Under the pieces are notes generated by a model that was given only the letters and a program-made list of their open reading frames with translations, searched no databases and had not been told where the DNA came from. DNA of 64,000 bases from Monosiga brevicollis MX1 (Eukaryota; Opisthokonta; Choanoflagellata; Craspedida; Salpingoecidae). This document shows, in pieces, positions 45,061 to 56,409 of this stretch (within the stretch, counting starts at the first letter, position 1; each line of letters begins with the position of its first letter). A program made the translations under genes and the position numbers. The stretch spans positions 358,134 through 422,133 of the forward strand of contig NW_001865072.1 in assembly GCF_000002865.3 (NCBI RefSeq). The letters run 5' to 3'.

Positions 45061-47792
45061 TTAGACAGCGCTGGCGTTGGTATGGGTGCGGGACCGCCCG
45101 CCTGCGAGCTCAACGCTCGCTCCCGTCGCACGTCGTTGGTCGGATCCCCAGGTATTGGAGCGACTGGGAGGGTTGCTAATGCTGATGGGGCCACCAGACA
45201 AATTGACATGCTCGCTTCCTGGACGCTCAGCCATGGGCTGAATCACGACGCTGGCCATGTCATTGGCGATTTGAGAAACACCCAGAGGCCCGTCCTCGCT
45301 ATGGTCGCTTTGGTGCTCGCTGATGGGCCCAGCGAGTTGAATGGTGTTTTTGTTCGTGGGATCATCGTCTGCAAATTGTCGCCGGTACTGGTACCGATAA
45401 GATACGCCACGCACGTGGCCAATGGCAAAAAGGGCAGCATAAAAGGCTAGGGTGGCCAGCACGACGGCAACAGTAAACCCCATCACCTTTGTATCGTTTT
45501 GATCATCCGTGTCTCGAGACCGCGCTGCGCCTGGAGTTGGGCTTGCCATGGCGGGCGTGGTAGCGGGCGCGGTCGGCGGGGAAGATGAGGTCAGGGTGAC
45601 GGTTTGGAGGCCCTCTAGACCATCCACTCCCTGCAGCAGCGTTAGCAGCTCAGCCCAGGGCAAAGTCGTCAGGCGGTCGTCCAATGTGGCAGCACGAAAG
45701 TTGGGGCTGCCGCTGCCAATGGTATCGATGAGCACAGTCAGCATACAAAGTGTAGCGGGCGTTGATGGTTCGACAGCCGTGCCACTGCGCCGACGCGCCT
45801 CCGTGATGGTGGGTGCTTGAGTGGCGAGCGTGGCAGGAGGGCGCACCGCTTCCAGGGTCAGCCAAACGTGGCGGGCCAATCCCTGAAGGACGTCAGTAGC
45901 CACGAGAGCCTGCAGGTCGTCTTGAGCGGCAGTGGCCTGTGCCAAGCTGACATTGACGAGCAGTAGGTAGTGGGTGATGTTGATGGCACGGACGGGATGA
46001 CATGCGCAGGCGGCAGTGTTGGTGGAGTCGGTGCAGACGTAGGAAGCGTTTTGTTCGACGGGCGTTTGGGTGCTATCATTCGGCGAAACGCACGTCAGAT
46101 AAAACGTGCTGTTTCCCTGCAGCGTGAGATGGTCTGGCAAGCAGGCCACGGGAATTTCTTCACCCGAGCTTCGTGCTACAGCCGCAGGCAGGTCTGCAGT
46201 TGTGTCGGTTAAAGGGCGAGCGGCGGGTACACCGCAGGTGGAGCAGCTGAACGGGGCAAAACCAGTGAGGGGAGGACAGTCAAAGCCAAATCCGGAGCCC
46301 TGATTAAGCTGGAGGCTGCTAAGGGCTGGAATGGCAATGAGCGGGGGCAGGGGGCCAAAGAGCATGTTGCCGTCGACGCGCAGCGCCTGCAAGGCGCTGC
46401 CCTGCAGCTCATCGGTGGAGGGACCCGGGCTGGAGACCAAGAAACCACGCAAGCGATTGTTATGCAGCTCGAGCGTTGTAAGGCTGGGGGCGGCCTCAGA
46501 GAGCCACGCGGTCGACAGCTGGCCAGTGAGGTGGTTGTTGCCAAGTTTGAGAACGCGCAGCTGGGGTAGGAGTGTCACCAGGGCAGGGTCGGCCAGGCTG
46601 CTGTTCAGCTGGTTTTGGCTCAGGTCGAGTCTACAGCAGGCATGCGACGACAGCCGTGTACCATTAGTATGAATCGAACGCGGCAAATCAAACAAGAGTA
46701 AGGACAAAAGTCTGAGCAAGCAAATCTGAAGGAAAACCCTCACGGCGACGAAAAAAAAAAAACTTACTCGCGAAGGGTGCTGATAGCGGCTAGAGCTGGA
46801 GGGAAGGGCCCGGTCAAGTGAGCGGCCACAGCAGTCAATGTCTCGAGGGCGGGAAGATTGGCCAAGGCAGCAGGCAGGCCCGTAGCGACGCCCGGTGTCG
46901 ATGCAAGGGGGCCAGGCAGGATAATGTCCTGCACTCGAGCCAAAGGCGGCGTGGGCTGTGAGCAGGTGACCCCTGTCCATGCGCAGTAGTTGTCATCACT
47001 CCAGACGCTGGCGTCGAGCAGGGACTGGCGCAGAGCGAGCATGGCGTCGCGCTCCGACGTCGAGACACAGAGGGCATTCTGGCGCGCGGTGCAGTCCCGA
47101 ATGGCGGTTGTTCCCGCACCGCAAGTTCCGCAGCGCTGGCAGGCGGCACCATCGCTGGTCGCTTTGAAAAACCCAGTCCCACAGGTTTGGCAATAGGCGT
47201 TGCTGACGTCTTCGCCCTCGCAGATATCACTGCCAGAAAGACCCTCGCCGGCGGGGCACGCAACTTCACAGGGGGTGCATTGAGTACACTGACCCCCGCC
47301 ATCACGGGCGGCGCACCCACAGTCAAAGGTGAGATTGAAGAGCGCGCGGTAGGCGGAGCCGTTCACCGTGGCAAAGACGCGTAGCTGAACAATGTGAGGC
47401 CCAGAGGTTGACAGGGCGCGCGGCGCCGGCGCTGCCCAAACGGGCGGAGTAGCATCGGCATAGGGAATGCCAGTTCCACAAGATTTGGCCCCTTGCAACT
47501 GGCCCGGACCAGCAAGCAAGGCGACCTGTAGGCCGGCCACGTCCAGAGCCTGGCCCGAGGATACCTCGTGCGCCTCAAGCGCGAGCGTATAGCTTTCATC
47601 AGGCAAAAACAGGCGGTTGTGGGCGGGACCAGCCCCGTGCTGCGCCACCAAGCTGACGTTCCATGCGGCTGAAGCCTGTGGCGTCGGATCGCACACATCT
47701 GCTTGCACCACAACTGGCTGGAGAACCGCCAGGCTCAAGACCAAAAGCGGCCACGCCCACCCAACGATTCGGCCGCACGATCGAACCGGCAT
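45061..47792 (-). CDS. Receptor-like protein: TNFR-like Cys repeats, LRRs, one membrane span
   Basis: Exons 47792-46768 and 46630-45061 join in phase 2 to give 864 residues. A signal peptide (WAWPLLVLSLAVLQPVVV) is followed by a beta-rich region. Next is a Cys-rich part about 160-250 with TNFR/EGF-like spacing (CTQCTPC, CQTCGTGFF, CQRCGTCGAG), then an LRRNT-like YCAWTGVTC as in plant LRR receptors. LRRs follow (LDLSQNQL, LKLGNNHLTG, LELHNNRLRG, LRVDGNMLFGPLPPL), then a Cys-bearing Thr/Ser/Pro-rich stem with several NxS/T sites. A transmembrane helix at about 45410-45490 and a cytoplasmic tail of about 130 residues without kinase or death domain complete it. An in-frame ATG at 47828 would extend the N-terminus. 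Ligand and signalling are unknown. Its stop is only 60 bases from the Hrq1 stop. Confidence 0.88.
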
Positions 47793-48689
47793 GATGCCAG
47801 TGTCCGCCCCCGGATCCGTCCACAACACGCACCAACAGCAGCAATGTCAATATGAGAATCAAGTCCGGACCCAGTCCAGCCCGCCACCATTCACACTCTC
47901 CTCCCCCGCCACCTCCACCTCCTCCTCCTCCGTCGCCGCCTCTGCTGTCTCGTCTTCTTCGCCTCGAAAGCACACACGCACACGCACTCACACACACACA
48001 CACACTCTCTCTCTCTCAAATTTCAAAATGAATACACCCCTTTTAATTCATACAAAAGTTTTATCTAACTATGACACCTGGGAAATTAAATTTTGAACCG
48101 AGGGTCACGGTCACTCATCGAGGGTTTGCACAACATCCCCAAAGTCCAACCCATTTACACTTTGATGTCTGGGTCCTGTTTTCTTAAAGTGTGTTGTGAG
48201 ATACACTCAAGCAGGCTGTGTCAGACGCCCAAAACCTAGAGGACAGAATCAAGCAAACGGTGGGATAGTTTTTCATCCCTACCGATGACAGGGGACACTC
48301 ACCGCCTTCTCGTTGCCTTGAATCAACAAAGCTTCGCCCCTCCCAAACGCCACTCAGCGTGAGCGTGGCTGGAAGCCTGATGTTGCATCTGCGTTGACTT
48401 GTTGAACGCGAACCCCCGCACTCCCCTCCTCCTTTCAGTCCGGCTTTCCTCTGCAAGCTCCGAAAACTGGGGCTCGAGCACAGGCGAAATGACAGCTCCC
48501 CCAAATACGCGTTGTGAGGGAGCAGAACCCATCAGCGGATCGCAGTTCCCAACAGAGAGCGCGCACACACACTCACACACTCACACACTCACACACTCAC
48601 ACACACACACACACGCTTGAAGGCTTTCTTTCTGGTACCCTGGATTGGACAGGCTCAAAAAACCTGTGCTTCACGCATACACAGGGGCC
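47793..48689. promoter_or_regulatory. Head-to-head promoter region of two receptor genes
   Basis: 897 bases between two divergent receptor start codons. Contains short (CT)/(AC) tracts at about 47970-48016 and (AC)n at about 48564-48613, plus an AT-richer segment at 48020-48180. No core promoter motif identified. Confidence 0.5.
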
Positions 48690-51600
48690 ATGGCGATCCT
48701 GCGCCACCCCGCTCTGGTTGTCCTGGTTCTTCTCGCGTGCATCAAAATGGCTGCGGCGCACGGTATGTACACGCACTGCCCCTTTCCGCTCTCTTGCACC
48801 GACGGCTGCCACATATGACGCCAGACTGCCGGTGACTAACGCTTTGGTTGACATGTCCATGTCAATTAGAATTCTTAATCGTCATTCATTCAGTTGGCCT
48901 GGCTTACAACGCCTCAATCCTGAGCGACGCTGCCGAATACACGGCAGACCTGAACCAGCCCGCTCAACTTCTCCTGGACCCCTTTTTCCGCCTTGACGCA
49001 TCAGATCCCAACGCACCGCCGCTGTGGTCCAGTGCCATCAACCCCCAGCAGGCACCAGCCCCATCTCGCCTTGCGCTTCCTGCCCTGGACCTCGTGTGGC
49101 GCACCAACGACGACAACCTCACCTTCTCCGTCTGGGACGACGATCAGGGTGATGCGAACCATCACGCCTTTGACCGCAGCTTCATGGCCAGTGACCATCT
49201 GTTCAGCACGCACCTTCGACTGTCGCCGCTCAACCCCGCTTTGCAGGTGCAACTCAATGCCAGCACCAAAGCCCTCACTCTGAGCCTCAACTACAGTGCC
49301 TGGCCCTGCGCATGCCAGTCTTCCGGAGGCTCTTGCATTCGCGGCAACGACGACCCGGCTAACGTCGCTTGCCAATGCCCCCACGGTCATTATTCCCACT
49401 CGGATCTTCATGGCCGGCCCACCTGCCAGCCTTGGGCGCAGTGCCTTGCCGGTCAAGTCGAAGTGCAGGCCCCGTCCCCATTTATCGATCGTCAATGTGC
49501 AGCTTGCGGCCCAGGCCAAGCATGCCCCACGCCGCTGCCCGCCACAACCCGAGACTGCCTCGCTCAGGATCGCCTTTATGCTACCGGAAACGCCACCATC
49601 TGTGCCATTGACCCTCGATCCGGTGGCCACTATCTGCAGACCGATGCGCATGGTCGAGGCGTGGTACGCCTTCCCTGCCCGACCAAGAGCTTTTGCCCAC
49701 CTGGCGCTCTGTGCCTGGACGCCTGCATCTCTTGCCAAGAATGTGGTGACAGCTTTTCCCAAGCCAGTGCCTGCTCGGCCACCAGCAACGCCGTCTGCGA
49801 GCCCGAAACGACATTTTGCAATAACCTTGACTGTGGTGACGAAGAGTGCCTCGGCGCCATCATCTTTGTGCGCGAAGCTCGCTGCGAGTGCCCCGATGGT
49901 CAGACCTGGAACTCCACGTACCGCCGGTGTATCTCTGACGCAACCCCCTGCAATTTTGGCATCACCGTCTGTGGACAAGCCTCCTGCCAAGCTCAGGGCG
50001 CCAGCTTTAGCTGTCACTGCCCCAAAGGTCTGACTTTTGATGGTCAAGGTGCCTGCATTGATCAAGAAGATACCTGTACCCCAGCTTCATGTACCGTCAG
50101 TGAGGATACTGCCTGCGTCGATCTAGCAGAGGCCCCCATGTGCCGTTGCGACGCCCTGAGTCACGGCACCTCGTGTGAGCACGACCTGCAGCCCTGCCAG
50201 CTCGATGGCAAACCTACTTGCTCCCACAATGCCAGTTGCTCTTACTCGGGCGTCTTCAACGAGGAGGCCAGCGCCCTTTCCGTGCAGGATCTGATGTGTG
50301 CTTGCGAAGAATCAGGCTTTGCTGGGTCTCATTGCACCCTCGACGTGGATGAGTGTGCTCTGCAACCCTGTGGACTACATGGCACCTGCATCAATCTGCC
50401 TGGCGGCTTCACTTGCAACTGTGACCCGGGGTATGACCAGCCCTGGGAGAACGCACCATGCTCCGACGTTTCGAGCCCCAACATCACGCTGGACAACGCG
50501 TTCTTTTCCATTGATATTGCAGACGGATTGTCGGTCAGCTCAGTCTTACGCCTTACCCGGCCTCATGTGTCAGACAACAGCGGCGTGGTCCCGGCCTTGG
50601 AGGTGGTGGTCCCTCTTAATATGACGGCCAACTCCAACGTAACAGTGACTCTGCGCGCCGTTGACGAGACGGGAAACAGTGCCACCCAGCTCGTGATCGT
50701 GCGGGTGCTCGATCTCTCCGCCCCCCTGTTGACATTACGAGCCGAGCCAGCGAACCAACACCCCGTCCAGACTGCATTTGTGGCGCCCACGGCCATGGCT
50801 CAGGACGCCGTCGATGGGCCGTGCCCCGTCACCCTCGTCAATTCGGTTGACAGCAACCGATTGGGCTGCTATGACCTCATCTGGTCTGCGCAAGATCAAG
50901 CAGGCAACCGAGTCAAGCTTTCGCGACAGGTTTGCGTTGTCGATCGGATTCCGCCAACCTTGGACATTCAAGTCTCCTCGGTACCCCACCGTGTTCCCGT
51001 GGGGTCCACCTTTGCACCGCCCAGCGTTGTGGTTCAAGACAATTACGACGCCAGCGCTAGTCTCGAGCAGTGGCGGGTCCCAAATACGATCGACACCCGT
51101 GCTGAGCCCGGCTCTGAGGCACTCCTCACCTACTTTGCACGAGACGCCAGCAACAACACCGGCAACGCCACGCTACGCCTGCTCTTTGTGGATATTGAGG
51201 GACCTGTCATTACATACAATGAGCAACCCGTGTCGCGCGCCACTCAAACCGTTGCGTTTGGCACACCACTTCGGGGCTTGCCCATTGGCATCAACGACAA
51301 CGCCGACCTGAACCCACGGTGGAGCGCCAGTGGGTATAGCCGCTGCACAGCGGGCCTGCAAACCCTTCGCATCAACGCAAGCGATGCCTCAGACAACGTT
51401 GTTCTGGCTTATGTTGACCTGGACGTCACCAGCCCCTCAAGCAGTTACATGACTCAAGACTTGGTGCAGGCCAGTTGGAAAGACGAGAATGTTGACAAGA
51501 CCCGAGTACCACTTCTCTTGCAAACAGTTGTGCCGGACCTTTGCGTGCAGCTCGTCTCGTCTGGTACAGATCACGTTGTTGCTGCCTTTTACGACACCCA

Positions 51601-53553
51601 TCGCCAAGACTGGCTCGAGGCCTCCATTGCAATCGACCGTGTGGCTAATGGTACGCACAATATCTCGACAGCTGGTACCAACGCAGATGGAAGCGGAGTG
51701 GTGTCCGTGGAACAGATGTCCACGCCGACCTCCATCCAGCTGGGTGGCATAACACTTGAGCTCGTGGCCTATGCCGGTCTGTCGAATGGCAACGGAGATA
51801 ATGAGACGACCTCGCCGACTTCGTCGGCTGGGTCCATCGCGCTTGTAGCCGGTGTGGGTGCCGGCGCGGTGCTACTCTTGGCTCTAACCATCACCGCTGT
51901 TGTGTTCTGGCGGCGCGTGCACCAGCGACGTAAGCGTGACGCCGTACGCACGCGCTCAATGGCGGAAGCTGACATGAGCAAATTTGAGTTTCACAACATG
52001 CGCCACATGGCTGATCTGCCGGGTGGGCGGATTCCAGCATCTTTTCATAGCGTTGACTCAAACGTAACCTCTCTGCCCCACGATGATCGCGTCTATGCCA
52101 CCATCTCCGTCACGGAGCGCTCTGCGCAGACGTTGGCTCAACATGCTGAAAACTATTATTCAGAGATTGGTGACAACACCCTAGACAGCAGCCAATATTG
52201 CGTCCCTGTGCCCCTTCCCGATGGCCATCTCTATGCCAGCCACTTGACTATCAACGCCAAGGCCATGGATGTCAACTTAAAGCGGAGTGGGTCAGAGATG
52301 CAGGTCCCAACTTACATTTCTCGGCCACGAGATATTGGCGCGCCTGTGCCCGTGCCTATCTACGATGAGTTGGGCCAGGTTCTCAGCTATCAGCTGCGAG
52401 CAGGCTCGGAGCACGGTGGCATGCACATTTATGTTGCGCCCGTGCGCGACCCGGCAACTAGCCCACGCGTCCCTTTTTATGATGAGCTGGGCAACGTGGT
52501 TGGTGAGACAACCTTGCCACCACTCAACCAGGTAGAAGTATCGTCCCAACAGCCTGTGAGGGGATTTGTGCAGACCCCTTCCACCGCAGCTGATGGCTTT
52601 CAGAGCCTCACTTTTACCTCCTTCGCCTCGAGCACGGGCATTATCTCGATGCCTCCCAGCATTGCACGCCGCGCTGCCGCACTCAATCCGAGCAATGACG
52701 CCGGGACTAGCCCGCGTCTGGCATGGCAAGAGAGCATTCAATCGGGCAGTTATGGGTTTGAACTGTCACGCAGATCCTCGAGACTATCTGCACAGCACCA
52801 TGCGGTCACTCAACGCGGAGTGCCGGGCAACGCTGACCTTGAGGAAGATGCAAGCCAAGCATCATTATCAGCGGCTGCCGTTGATTTGATGGAAGCCACT
52901 GCACGCCCCTCTAGTAACAATGAGCCCAAAGATCGCGACGATGGCGAGTATCTGCGTGTTGACGGCATTGTTGGTACGGAGGAGCCGAGCGATGCCCTTG
53001 ACCGTAATATGCTCGCTGCGCTGGAACCCCGCTCTGGAATGCCTTCGCCTCCGCCGCCTTCAGCCGCTTCGGCCCCATCAACAGACGCGACTCTGTCAAA
53101 AATCTTTACGGTGCACACCATGAGTGGAGTGGATGCTGAGGTGAAGCTAGCAGACGCAGCGCCGGGCACGTACCTTCTGCGCCTCGTCGTAGGGGGTATC
53201 ACATCCCAGGTATGATTGTCGATCGTTCATGCAGGAAGATCAATCGGGCTTCTGACCTGCGCCAGCAATACCAAAACATGTCTTTTCACCCTTGTTGCCC
53301 GCATCGCCGGACTGTGCGCCCATAGTCTTGCGATTTGTGCGTGCGAGGCGCAGACACTTTCACACACCATGCTCTTTATTTCACAAAGGAGCAAGCAATG
53401 TACTTTTTAGATGGCACAGTTGGCTCTACTTCTGTCACCTCCTTGGATGAGGCGATGCTAGACATTCTTAAAGCTAACCCTAGCACCTTTATCCAGCAAT
53501 GGCAGCGCGGCGACCCGGCTTTATCACTCATGCAGGCCCCGCACGAGGATTAA
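48690..53553 (+). CDS. EGF-repeat transmembrane receptor with tyrosine-rich tail
   Basis: Exons 48690-48762, 48894-53209, 53389-53553 give 1517 residues. Signal peptide (LVVLVLLACIKMAAA); a C2/DSL-like N-terminal region; Cys-rich TNFR-like blocks (CGPGQACP, CISCQECGDSF); several EGF-like modules ending in a calcium-binding EGF (DVDECALQPCGLHGTC) near residue 508; then three HYR/Ig-like beta repeats (DETGNSAT, DQAGNRV, DASNNTGN). A membrane helix (VAGVGAGAVLLLALTITAVVFW) at about 1005-1030 and a 487-residue tail follow. The tail holds at least nine tyrosines in short acidic or hydrophobic contexts: VYATI, YYSEI, QYCVP, LYASHL, TYISRP, two YDELG repeats, IYVAP and EYLRV. No kinase domain is present. 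The last 70 residues fold-like segment (APGTYLLRLVVGG...SLDEAML) recalls the second half of an SH2 domain only weakly. Confidence 0.9.
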
Positions 53554-53985
53554 ACGAGTCGCCTGGAAGTGTGCGTCCCGAACAAGCATGCAAACTTGTC
53601 AAAAAGAACTTACTCTGCGAGCTTGCAAAAGCGTCAGCAAGAACCATGCATACTTCTGCGAGAGCATGTCGTTGGCCTGCAGCCATAAGCCTGCTTGTCT
53701 CCCTTCATGATTGAATAACTCGCTGTTCTATCGCAGCGCTCCGTGAAAGATGAATAAATGCAACCTGTTTTTCAGTCAACTAATTGATTGTAATTGCACA
53801 GCGGCACTGATTGATGCACCTTGCATCTCACTCTCAAAGCCACACATGGAGAACCAGCTGCGCGTGCGCAGGTCAGGTTAGCAAGGTATCTCTACCGCGC
53901 TGGACAAATGAATATGGCATCCAGTAATGGCCGCTCGGCAAATACCAGTCTTGCAAACTGCACGGCTGCTCAATCGAAAAGTCAG
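53554..53985. other. Convergent intergenic spacer
   Basis: Between the stops of the EGF receptor (+) and the TMEM175-like gene (-). An AATAAA-like element (gatgaataaatg) lies at about 53749-53760 downstream of the receptor gene. No gene seen. Confidence 0.5.
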
Positions 53986-56409
53986 TTAGCTATTCAAAGC
54001 TCCAGGCGCGTCGTTCGGAAGCAAGCGAGAACGAAGGTTATCCCGCTCCGGCTGTTCTCCGTGTGAGCCAAATACGCGCACCAAGACCCAGCGTAGTAAA
54101 GGAGCCGCCAGCAACACCAACATTGTCAACCTGAAGAGTCGAGAGGTGGAATACAGCAGCCATCAATAGAGGTACACAAACTGTGTGGCCCATCGTTGAA
54201 AAAAAACAAATACCGCCAAAGTGGCTTACCAATGTGCCCATGAGAGGCCCAGCGCAATAAGGCCGCAGAGAGGCATGGCCATAACTCCGAGCGTAAAGTT
54301 GTCCAGATCTGTATATAGAGACACAAACTCGGTTTGAAACACACGGGCGGGCGCACGATGAAGACAGCAGAGCAAATGGAAGCTTGCTCTGCGACATGAA
54401 CAGCACAACCAGCAGCTCACTGACCTTGGCGCCGTGATTGCGGGTTGAGCACGCCGACGTTTGTGTAACGGCACAGAACCCAGGTGATAACCTGCAATAG
54501 CCCACCTATGGTGGTAAAAGCGCTCAGAAGACGGGTCGAGAGCTCTCTGGGGACAGAAAAAATAGAAATTGTAGTGGTGCTTGAGTCATAGACGAAGGTC
54601 TGGCCAAGCTGTGGGCGCTTGGAAGGTTATCAAATCAAAAGCTGTGGGCGCTTGGAAGGATATCAAATCAAAATACTGACTTGACCGAATCGCCACCATG
54701 CTGCAGAATGGCATAGGAGAAGAAGGAGGCAGTAAAGGGCAAAGCCAACAACCAAGCAAGCTGAAAATAGAGCGCATAAGCCATCGTATCTACCACAACA
54801 TTGCCACAGTGCATGAGCACGTTGTTACTGGCTTTATAGAGGCACTTGCGCAGAAGCGAAGGCAAGTTTCAGAGCTAAGAAGTCAAGACGGCACCACCGC
54901 ACCATGTAGAGACTTGAGATGGGCAACGAGCGCGACGTTGTTGAGATAGAACGAAGCAGCAATATAAAAGCTTATGAAGTAAGCCATGAGCACAGAGACC
55001 TACAAATGCGCGCCAAAATGAGCAGACAGTGTGGGAGAAGGACCAAGTGTTCATTTGGATCTGGTGCACGAGTGACCAACCTGCTTGAGGGCGCCGTGAT
55101 GAGCAGCAAAGAACTGATCCGAATCGAGGCTCAACGCCAAGATGCTTCCAATGATCGAATACACCGCATCTCGAAAAAGCTCATAGCGTTTTTTGTCGAA
55201 ATTGACACGCTAAGCAAAAGCCGAGGCGGTGGTGGTGGTGGTGGCGAAAGTCGATGACTGAACATACCAATAATCAAAAGAGAGACTGGAGCGCAAGTAA
55301 GAACTGCCAACGGGCGGGGGCGCACCTCAAAGTGTGAAGCTGGAATGAGACCAACTTGTCGGGTTATGCGATCCATCAAAAACAAGGGCAGGAGGCCAAG
55401 GACTGTGGTGATGATAGACGTGCAAGAGTGGAGGTGCGACCAGGCGCGAGCGAGTGAGGTTCATCGGTGGCACTTCGCAAGGAGGCCAGAGGGGAACTTT
55501 GTTGATCTTGTCAAAGGAAAAAAAGATATCCCCCGTTTGGCGGTTATGGCCCCCGTATCTTTCCATCCCGCTTGATCCTTCTCAAGCACCATCGCAAGCA
55601 AGGCAGAGAGGAAAAAAAAAAAGCAAAGAAATCTGAAGAACATTGACAAACAGATGGCAGACAAGTCCGTCCCACGTACGCGCTAGGGAGCCAAACACGA
55701 TGGCTAATCCAAACAAAACCAGAACGAGGACAGCCTGGAATAGGACGCGGCGCACACAAATTGTGTATTCCAGCTCCACTGCAGCACGACGCCTGGCGGC
55801 AGAGTCGATGCCGGCGTCAGAGGCCATCGGACTGCTCATTGCGCCGTCTATCTGGTTTAGGGGCTGGCGTTCGCTGCCGTGGACGAGGCTCCCATTGCCT
55901 GAGGTTTCTACCAGGCCCGTAGAATTGTTTGCCTCTGTTTCGTCTGCTTCTTGGCCATCCTCATCCTCTGGCTCACTCCAGAGATTGTGGCGAGCAGCAT
56001 GATGGAGAAGAAGGAGTCGAGTGATTTGGATGCAAAGCAGAGCACCCAAGATCATGCTGGCAGAGACTTTGGAGTCTTGAAGCGTCCGAATGCTGCTTCC
56101 CAAGCTGGATGCAAAGGGCAGCAAGCAAATGAAACAAAGCTCGGCGCAGTTCAAGGCTTGGATGCCCTCGTTGGCTTTCGGGATGAAGCGAAACACATAG
56201 AGGCTAAAGCGGCGTAGGAGCAGGATCAAGAAGAAGGTAGAACACGCCCATCCAAAGTAACCAAACTTGACCTGCAAAATCTCAAAGGCAGACTCGTCGT
56301 TGCCCTCTTCCTCATCGTCGATATCACTCAGGGATTCGACGCTGATTGTGGCAGCGATGGCCAAGAGGGCCTCGGCAAAGCCGATCGGAAGCTCGCTGGA
56401 CACCAACAT
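53986..56409 (-). CDS. TMEM175: TMEM175-like (DUF1211) endolysosomal channel
   Basis: Eight exons: 56409-55680, 55402-55326, 55209-55081, 54999-54903, 54789-54681, 54546-54425, 54308-54230, 54130-53986. All phases close to give 495 residues (human 504). Two homologous six-helix halves, as in animal TMEM175: half 1 starts PIGFAEALLAIAATI, contains a LLPFASSL helix (matching the conserved LLPF) and a charged, Ser/Glu-rich loop; half 2 starts RYELFRDAVYSII. The signature (R)xxxFSDA of the pore helices is degenerate in both halves: FAEA and FRDA. If orthologous, it conducts K+ or H+ in endolysosomes; the motif changes leave selectivity open. Intron 1 (55679-55403) is joined directly to exon 2, skipping an open frame that breaks the alignment. 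Confidence 0.85.

Follow-up and report, generated by a model that had tools for sequence, protein, structure and literature searches.

How a receptor that has no kinase of its own could take part in phosphotyrosine signalling is the question raised by a gene of the choanoflagellate Monosiga brevicollis MX1, found in a stretch of 64,000 nucleotides (contig NW_001865072.1, positions 358,134 to 422,133 of the forward strand) that is referred to here as the window and from whose first letter its positions are counted. The original prediction for this gene, made from the letters alone, was of a non-kinase receptor with a tyrosine-rich cytoplasmic tail that recruits proteins with SH2 or PTB domains, with the coding region ending at the stop of a long open frame. 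The analysis presented here suggests a single-pass type I receptor of 1538 amino acids after splicing, without a kinase domain, and the gene most likely continues beyond an intron to encode a divergent SH2 domain. We put at about 0.6 the probability that the tail of this kinase-less type I receptor combines phosphotyrosine sites with a phosphotyrosine reader.

Where the protein ends

The long open frame at 48848-53215 is read as exon 2 of a spliced gene, for which the following model is proposed.

48690..48762, forward strand: putative exon 1, with signal peptide MAILRHPALVVLVLLACIKMAAAH, an open frame joined by a GT-AG intron to exon 2
48763-48893, forward strand: putative intron 1, GT-AG, GTATGT ... 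TTCATTCAG
48894..53209, forward strand: exon 2, a single open frame coding for the ectodomain, the membrane span and the greater part of the tail, with GTATGA at 53210 as a possible donor
51833..51910, forward strand: transmembrane helix SIALVAGVGAGAVLLLALTITAVVFW then RRVHQRRKRD, residues 1005-1030, read from sequence
53102..53209, forward strand: first half of the SH2 domain by the family SH2 profile, with the FLVR-type arginine (GTYLLR; 53180-53182)
53210..53325, forward strand: putative intron 2 of 116 bases, GTATGA ... CCATAG, containing the in-frame TGA that closes the exon 2 frame
53326..53553, forward strand: putative exon 3, with the second half of the SH2 domain and the C-terminus; stop TAA at 53551-53553
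within exon 3 (53326..53553), forward strand: second half of the SH2 domain by the family SH2 profile, with the THHALYF histidines at 53365-53370
53389..53553, forward strand: alternative in-frame acceptor, whose use would cost the SH2 core 21 residues

The 3' end of the exon 2 frame reads TCC CAG GTA TGA, and as GTATGA fits a splice donor the TGA at 53213-53215, at which the coding region had been thought to end, would fall in the intron. The 116 bases are not a multiple of three, therefore the two SH2 halves stand in different frames and can be joined only by splicing. The acceptors 53326 and 53389 both keep the frame and the TAA stop at 53551, with 53392 one codon from 53389. Once spliced the tail comes to 508 residues (51911-53550), where it had been put at 487 over an interval, 51980-53209, of 410 codons. 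It could be argued that the protein does end at TGA 53213, where the exon 2 frame does stop, and serves for docking alone, with no SH2 domain; this is highly improbable, as the protein would then close with one half of an SH2 domain whilst the other half follows 116 bases on behind a GT-AG boundary, and the SH2 profile tests given below favour the spliced domain.

No kinase family is found among the Pfam matches to the protein (the model with the 53389 acceptor was scanned, the other C-terminus separately), which upholds the non-kinase part of the original prediction and speaks against a receptor tyrosine kinase. Matches to the Tyr/Ser-Thr kinase family PF07714 number 166 across the genome at E up to 1e-5, with the tyrosine kinases not separated, and two of them are among those listed for contig C23, at 92947 and 346834, both outside the window.

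A probable divergent SH2 domain at the C-terminus

The genome searched is of 39.5 Mb in 57 contigs. Its wealth of SH2 domains and of PF07714 matches agrees with a choanoflagellate. The crka1 SH2 domain of M. brevicollis (PDB 2RVF) has a single match in it at E up to 1e-10, of 48% identity, a result that taken by itself would point to another species and, if right, to the YxxP/SH2 class in one more choanoflagellate. The ectodomain, searched at E up to 1e-6, returned, besides the gene of the window receptor, four loci (46 of the 48 candidates were scored), which are L047-L050 on contigs C12, C47 (two) and C55 and have an ectodomain identity of 27-34%. SH2 matches lie 1.4-2.9 kb downstream of all four related ectodomains on the same strand. 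As read, each relative combines HYR/Ig-like repeats with a single transmembrane helix, a tail that bears tyrosine motifs and a pair of SH2 domains at the C-terminus. Pfam confirms that architecture for L047, L048 and L049; in L050 the ectodomain and the SH2 domains are in different open frames, which presumably belong to one gene.

In the window receptor the spliced piece from 53102, with its junction to 53326, reads IFTVHTMSGVDAEVKLADAAPGTYLLRLVVGGITSQ/SCDLCVRGADTFTHHALYFTKEQAMYFLDGTVGSTSVTSLDEAMLDILKANPST, the domain being residues 1428-1517. It was scored with five SH2 profiles, one of 19 SH2 domains of the genome (11 of 30 loci were left out as incomplete, and L036 and L038 contribute from transmembrane genes), others of the four first SH2 domains of the relatives, of their four second ones and of these eight together, and a last one of the pool of 27. 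Within a ranking set of 10,002 sequences, made up of the two splice variants and 10,000 shuffles, the spliced C-terminus ranks first with all five. With the profile of eight it scores 25.7 bits, an E of 4.6e-6 in that set, where the best shuffle reaches 10.1; the pool of 27 gives 22.2 bits (best shuffle 5.8), the first domains 19.4 (10.1), the second domains 14.9 (8.6) and the profile of 19 gives 13.3 (7.9), with hhalign probabilities of 93% for the profile of eight, 95% for that of 27 and 73% for that of 19. When the 827 six-frame segments of 50 or more residues in the window are scanned without selection, exon 3 alone (53326-53550, forward strand) comes top with the profile of eight (14.3 bits, E 0.0014) and also with the pool of 27 (11.0 bits).

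The FLVR-type arginine (GTYLLR, residue 1454) and the strand-D histidine are invariant in all nine aligned SH2 domains. When the nine are combined in one profile, its best matches in PDB are ZAP-70 and SYK, showing that the family is SH2, with most of that signal coming from the other eight rows. Within a tree of 28 SH2 domains the window domain groups with the first SH2 domains of the relatives at a local support of 0.815, which is weak and is not leaned on.

The first gene model used the acceptor at 53389 and was rejected, as this variant, whilst in frame, scores 13.4 bits against 25.7 for 53326 with the profile of eight; it is kept as a possible isoform. If the gene does extend into the SH2 domain, the receptor would not only display phosphotyrosine but also read it.

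Tyrosine motifs of the tail

The segment of the tail before the last domain has 393 residues and 12 tyrosines, a density (3.1%) that is modest beside the 18 in 979 residues (1.8%) of the ectodomain. The tyrosine peptides on which the original prediction was built (VYATI, YYSEI, YISRP, IYDELGQV, FYDELGNVV, IYVAP and EYLRV) are all in frame within the tail, and its minimum of nine tyrosines is borne out by the 12 between the membrane and the last domain and the 15 of the corrected tail. YDELG does occur twice, at a distance of 39 residues and not 43, and the duplicated stretch is longer than had been claimed. As a whole what was seen in this tail is partly confirmed, the peptides and the YDELG pair standing, with the spacing, the tail length and the end of the frame corrected.

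52154..52171, forward strand: YYSEIG, first copy of Y-x-E-[IL]-G (YSEIG at 52157), from the motif count
52313..52384, forward strand: tail repeat 1, YISRPRDIGAPVPVPIYDELGQVL, repeat score 54
52430..52501, forward strand: tail repeat 2, YVAPVRDPATSPRVPFYDELGNVV, starting 39 codons after repeat 1
52946..52960, forward strand: EYLRV tyrosine site, read in frame

The best internal repeat pairs YISRPRDIGAPVPVPIYDELGQVL with YVAPVRDPATSPRVPFYDELGNVV, a unit of 24 residues with two tyrosines in each copy, the copies 39 residues apart, and its ungapped score is 54, where shuffles average 32.7 and reach 49 at most. The motif Y-x-E-[IL]-G is found three times in the tail (YSEIG and YDELG twice) where 0.005 are expected. 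That the tail is ordinary disordered sequence with its motifs arising by chance is very unlikely; the modest tyrosine density would allow it, as would the pattern YDE[LF]G in DNA, which genome-wide is at the level of chance (15 sites, its reversed control having 16), but the repeat score is reached by none of 300 shuffles, the Y-x-E-[IL]-G count by none of 5000 (nor by any of 1000 in a second run), and the codons of one YDELG copy show silent changes from those of the other (TAC/TAT, TTG/CTG). These silent differences, together with a search for DNA repeats that does not list the YDELG copies, indicate that they are not a fresh DNA copy.

The chance-level count in the genome also implies that the motif belongs to the tail of the window receptor and is not a genome-wide receptor code. 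YDELG as a wider receptor motif, which the original prediction had looked to, was accordingly rejected; 6 of the 13 sites outside the window gene were read and none is in an evident receptor tail.

As to what the tyrosines might bind, Y-x-x-[ILVMP] occurs seven times in the tail where 3.4 are expected, a count reached by 2.7% of 5000 shuffles, whilst YxxP occurs twice with 1.0 expected. An immunoreceptor tyrosine-based activation motif (ITAM) is a pair of Yxx[LI] 6-12 apart and the corresponding inhibitory motif (ITIM) is [SIVL]xYxx[ILV]; the tyrosine contexts of the tail fit neither consensus, and an immune-type receptor was rejected. It is also conceivable, though unlikely, that the motifs are YxxPhi endocytic signals, which the AP-2 adaptor would bind when they are unphosphorylated, and not phosphotyrosine docking sites. 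The consensus for such signals is Y-x-x-[bulky hydrophobic], which YATI, YSEI, YDEL (twice) and YLRV all fit, and the excess of Y-x-x-[ILVMP] also suits it. Yet all three Y-x-E-[IL]-G copies have an acidic residue at +2 and a glycine at +4, neither of which such a signal requires, and the presence of an SH2 domain on this tail favours phosphotyrosine.

Phosphotyrosine docking motifs of the Src type on a kinase-less receptor are partly supported, being in agreement with the sequence and with the SH2 richness of the genome, in which PF00017 has 146 matches at E up to 10, counted exon by exon, with 5 under the cut-off. Recruitment of SH2 proteins, one half of the original prediction, is consistent with these, and the other half, recruitment of PTB proteins, is unsupported, as there is no NPx[YF] in the tail.

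SH2 domains on other membrane proteins of the genome

The tails of the four relatives have 15, 14, 3 and 4 YxxP motifs, against 2.2, 1.9, 0.6 and 1.2 expected. Two more transmembrane genes with SH2 domains were found, one of cadherin type (L036, on C30) and L038, with two SH2 domains. This census is a lower bound, since the 146 SH2 matches amount, once merged, to 110 places and it covers 39 of these, 28 of them via loci with flanks of 1.5 kb, 7 via stretches of 9.8 kb and 4 as the HYR relatives. A crude in-frame scan for transmembrane segments was positive for two of 30 short loci (L036 and L038). Among 10 long loci it found segments in L051, L055 and L060, none of them shown to be within an SH2 gene and only L060 having been read.

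A number of further observations were made on these genes. NPx[YF] lies at up to about 55 residues from the membrane in L047, L048, L049, L050, L036 and L038, and not in the window receptor; the juxtamembrane copies are NPVY, NPTY, NPLF, NPLF, NPTF and NPTF, and L036 and L038 have additional ones. The tail of L048 (3390-7544, reverse strand) has three full and also degenerate copies of GYQQPGGLGQQELYD[SL]PNAQDQTGMPVTMTMPLAQDSE, a strongly repeated array of YxxP. L038, on C54, is an open frame of 2987 residues with a transmembrane helix and two SH2 domains, the linker between them bearing tyrosines. The 620-residue frame of L060 (908-2767, reverse strand, on C56) fuses an SH2 domain (35.2 bits) with a Rhomboid protease (111.8 bits), an unfamiliar combination.

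Does the last domain read phosphotyrosine?

Several results weigh against a receptor that both shows and reads phosphotyrosine. Pfam PF00017 calls no SH2 in the spliced domain and phmmer matches it to no SH2 chain in PDB, and it is because of these two misses that the profiles were built. With the profile of 19, exon 3 alone is fourth of the 827 segments at 4.3 bits, which is chance level. The splice junctions are predicted from sequence, and the acceptor at 53326 was selected after the SH2 likeness had been noticed. The domain has SGVDAE, RLVV and IFTVH in the places where an SH2 domain customarily, though not always, carries a helix-A arginine, the serine of FLVRES and an opening tryptophan, and with these three supporting residues missing its affinity for phosphotyrosine may be weak or nil. 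Accepted SH2 domains can be without some of these three residues, hence the domain is labelled divergent and SH2-like. In the tail, the three copies of Y-x-E-[IL] have no counterpart in any of the four related tails. A further point comes from the Monosiga kinase receptor RTKB2, as described in the available part of PMC3584944, the tail of which was weakly phosphorylated in mammalian cells, with no complex with MbSrc1 recovered.

It is possible, if rather doubtful, that the last domain descends from an SH2 domain but has ceased to read phosphotyrosine and is a structural or protein-binding cap, with the tail as a docking strip alone. Such a cap would explain the loss of the three residues in the alignment, and likewise why Pfam misses the window domain yet matches all eight SH2 domains of the relatives when these are scanned singly at E up to 10. 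Set against it, all nine domains retain the arginine that binds phosphate and also the strand-D histidine, and the first SH2 domains of the relatives are also without the tryptophan.

What such a receptor might do

If the tail does hold both sites and reader, a separate kinase, either of the Src type or a receptor kinase, might phosphorylate the YSEI and YDEL sites upon clustering of the receptor, and these sites once phosphorylated would recruit Src-type SH2 proteins. The SH2 domain of the receptor itself could then bind phosphotyrosine carried by the same receptor, by a sister receptor or by a kinase receptor next to it, and phosphorylation would thereby build and hold the receptor cluster. 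It is a speculative and rather improbable extension of this that the receptor writes nothing and only shows and reads phosphotyrosine, so that phosphorylation directly drives clustering, with the acceptor at 53389 able to yield an isoform that is for docking only.

A transmembrane segment with a cytoplasmic SH2 domain recurs in at least six other genes, namely the four HYR relatives, the cadherin type and L038. The window receptor would offer a testable case for how phosphotyrosine circuits were wired before animals, and would be an example of a divergent SH2 domain that escapes Pfam even after splicing.

Ectodomain and neighbouring features

Pfam places EGF domains above its cut-off in the protein, and a TNFR repeat and an HYR/Ig-like repeat of PF16403, of which DUF5011 is presumably the older name, just below theirs.

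49376..49498, forward strand: TNFR-like cysteine-rich repeat (PF00020, 26 bits, under the cut-off of 29.4)
50342..50452, forward strand: calcium-binding EGF domain (PF07645, 30.1 bits, cut-off 27)
50762..50938, forward strand: HYR/Ig-like repeat (PF16403, 25.8 bits, just under the cut-off of 27)

The HYR/Ig-like repeat lies within the stretch of the ectodomain that matches the four other loci. In divergent orientation 0.9 kb away, at 45061-47828 on the reverse strand and in two frames, there is another apparent receptor; by eye its ectodomain is TNFR-like and leucine-rich, and a transmembrane helix leads to a tail that is short. Rfam finds nothing at gathering scores in 46000-56000.

Comparison with known systems

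Transmembrane proteins of choanoflagellates with YxxP repeats and C-terminal SH2-like domains have been published (A9V449, A9VAL3 and PTSG_05573), of which A9V449 and PTSG_05573 carry a DUF5011 ectodomain, thus going by the available part of PMC5043372 the broad class of a transmembrane segment, a YxxP tail and a C-terminal SH2-like domain is already in print. The window receptor shares with it a single transmembrane helix, a tail with tyrosine motifs and, if the splice is right, a C-terminal SH2-like domain. It differs from the class, as far as this is set out in that part of PMC5043372, in having two YxxP, three Y-x-E-[IL]-G and a single SH2 domain, and without the several YxxP of the group it is a variant and not a plain member. 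It is not named in the passages of PMC5043372 consulted, those on the pre-metazoan partners of the crka SH2 among them. Neither a YxE[IL]G member nor a receptor that reads itself is found in the literature listings at the level of titles and abstract openings, from which absence from print is not claimed, and neither is mentioned in the available parts of PMC3507883 and PMC8662651.

A parallel for the docking sites is RTKB2, for which the available part of PMC3584944 describes a tail unit with Y-E-A-I that in vitro is a substrate of both RTKB2 and MbSrc1 and, once phosphorylated, a binding site for the SH2 domain of MbSrc1. There is further likeness in its ectodomain of TNFR-like, hyalin (HYR) and EGF type and in its disordered, repeated tail with the Src-type site YEAI; the differences are that RTKB2 has its own kinase, that its RM2 units are of about 80 residues and that an SH2 domain in its tail is not mentioned in that part of PMC3584944.

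In the same genome there are the relatives L047-L050, which share the HYR/Ig-like ectodomain, the one transmembrane helix, the tyrosine tail and the C-terminal SH2, but differ in their tandem SH2 domains matched by Pfam, their YxxP motifs and juxtamembrane NPx[YF], and their lack of Y-x-E-[IL]. The cadherin-type L036 is alike in its adhesion-type ectodomain, one transmembrane helix and cytoplasmic SH2, with no kinase in the stretch read, and differs in its cadherin repeats and in an SH2 domain that is near the membrane and recognised by Pfam. The tandem SH2 domains of ZAP-70 and SYK resemble the family as the best PDB matches of the nine-domain profile; these are soluble kinases that bind ITAMs on other receptors, whereas the SH2 domain of the window receptor would be part of the receptor itself. 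In familiar animal phosphotyrosine receptors the sites are on the receptor and the SH2 reader is on soluble proteins, unlike the window receptor in which site and reader are apparently on one membrane protein.
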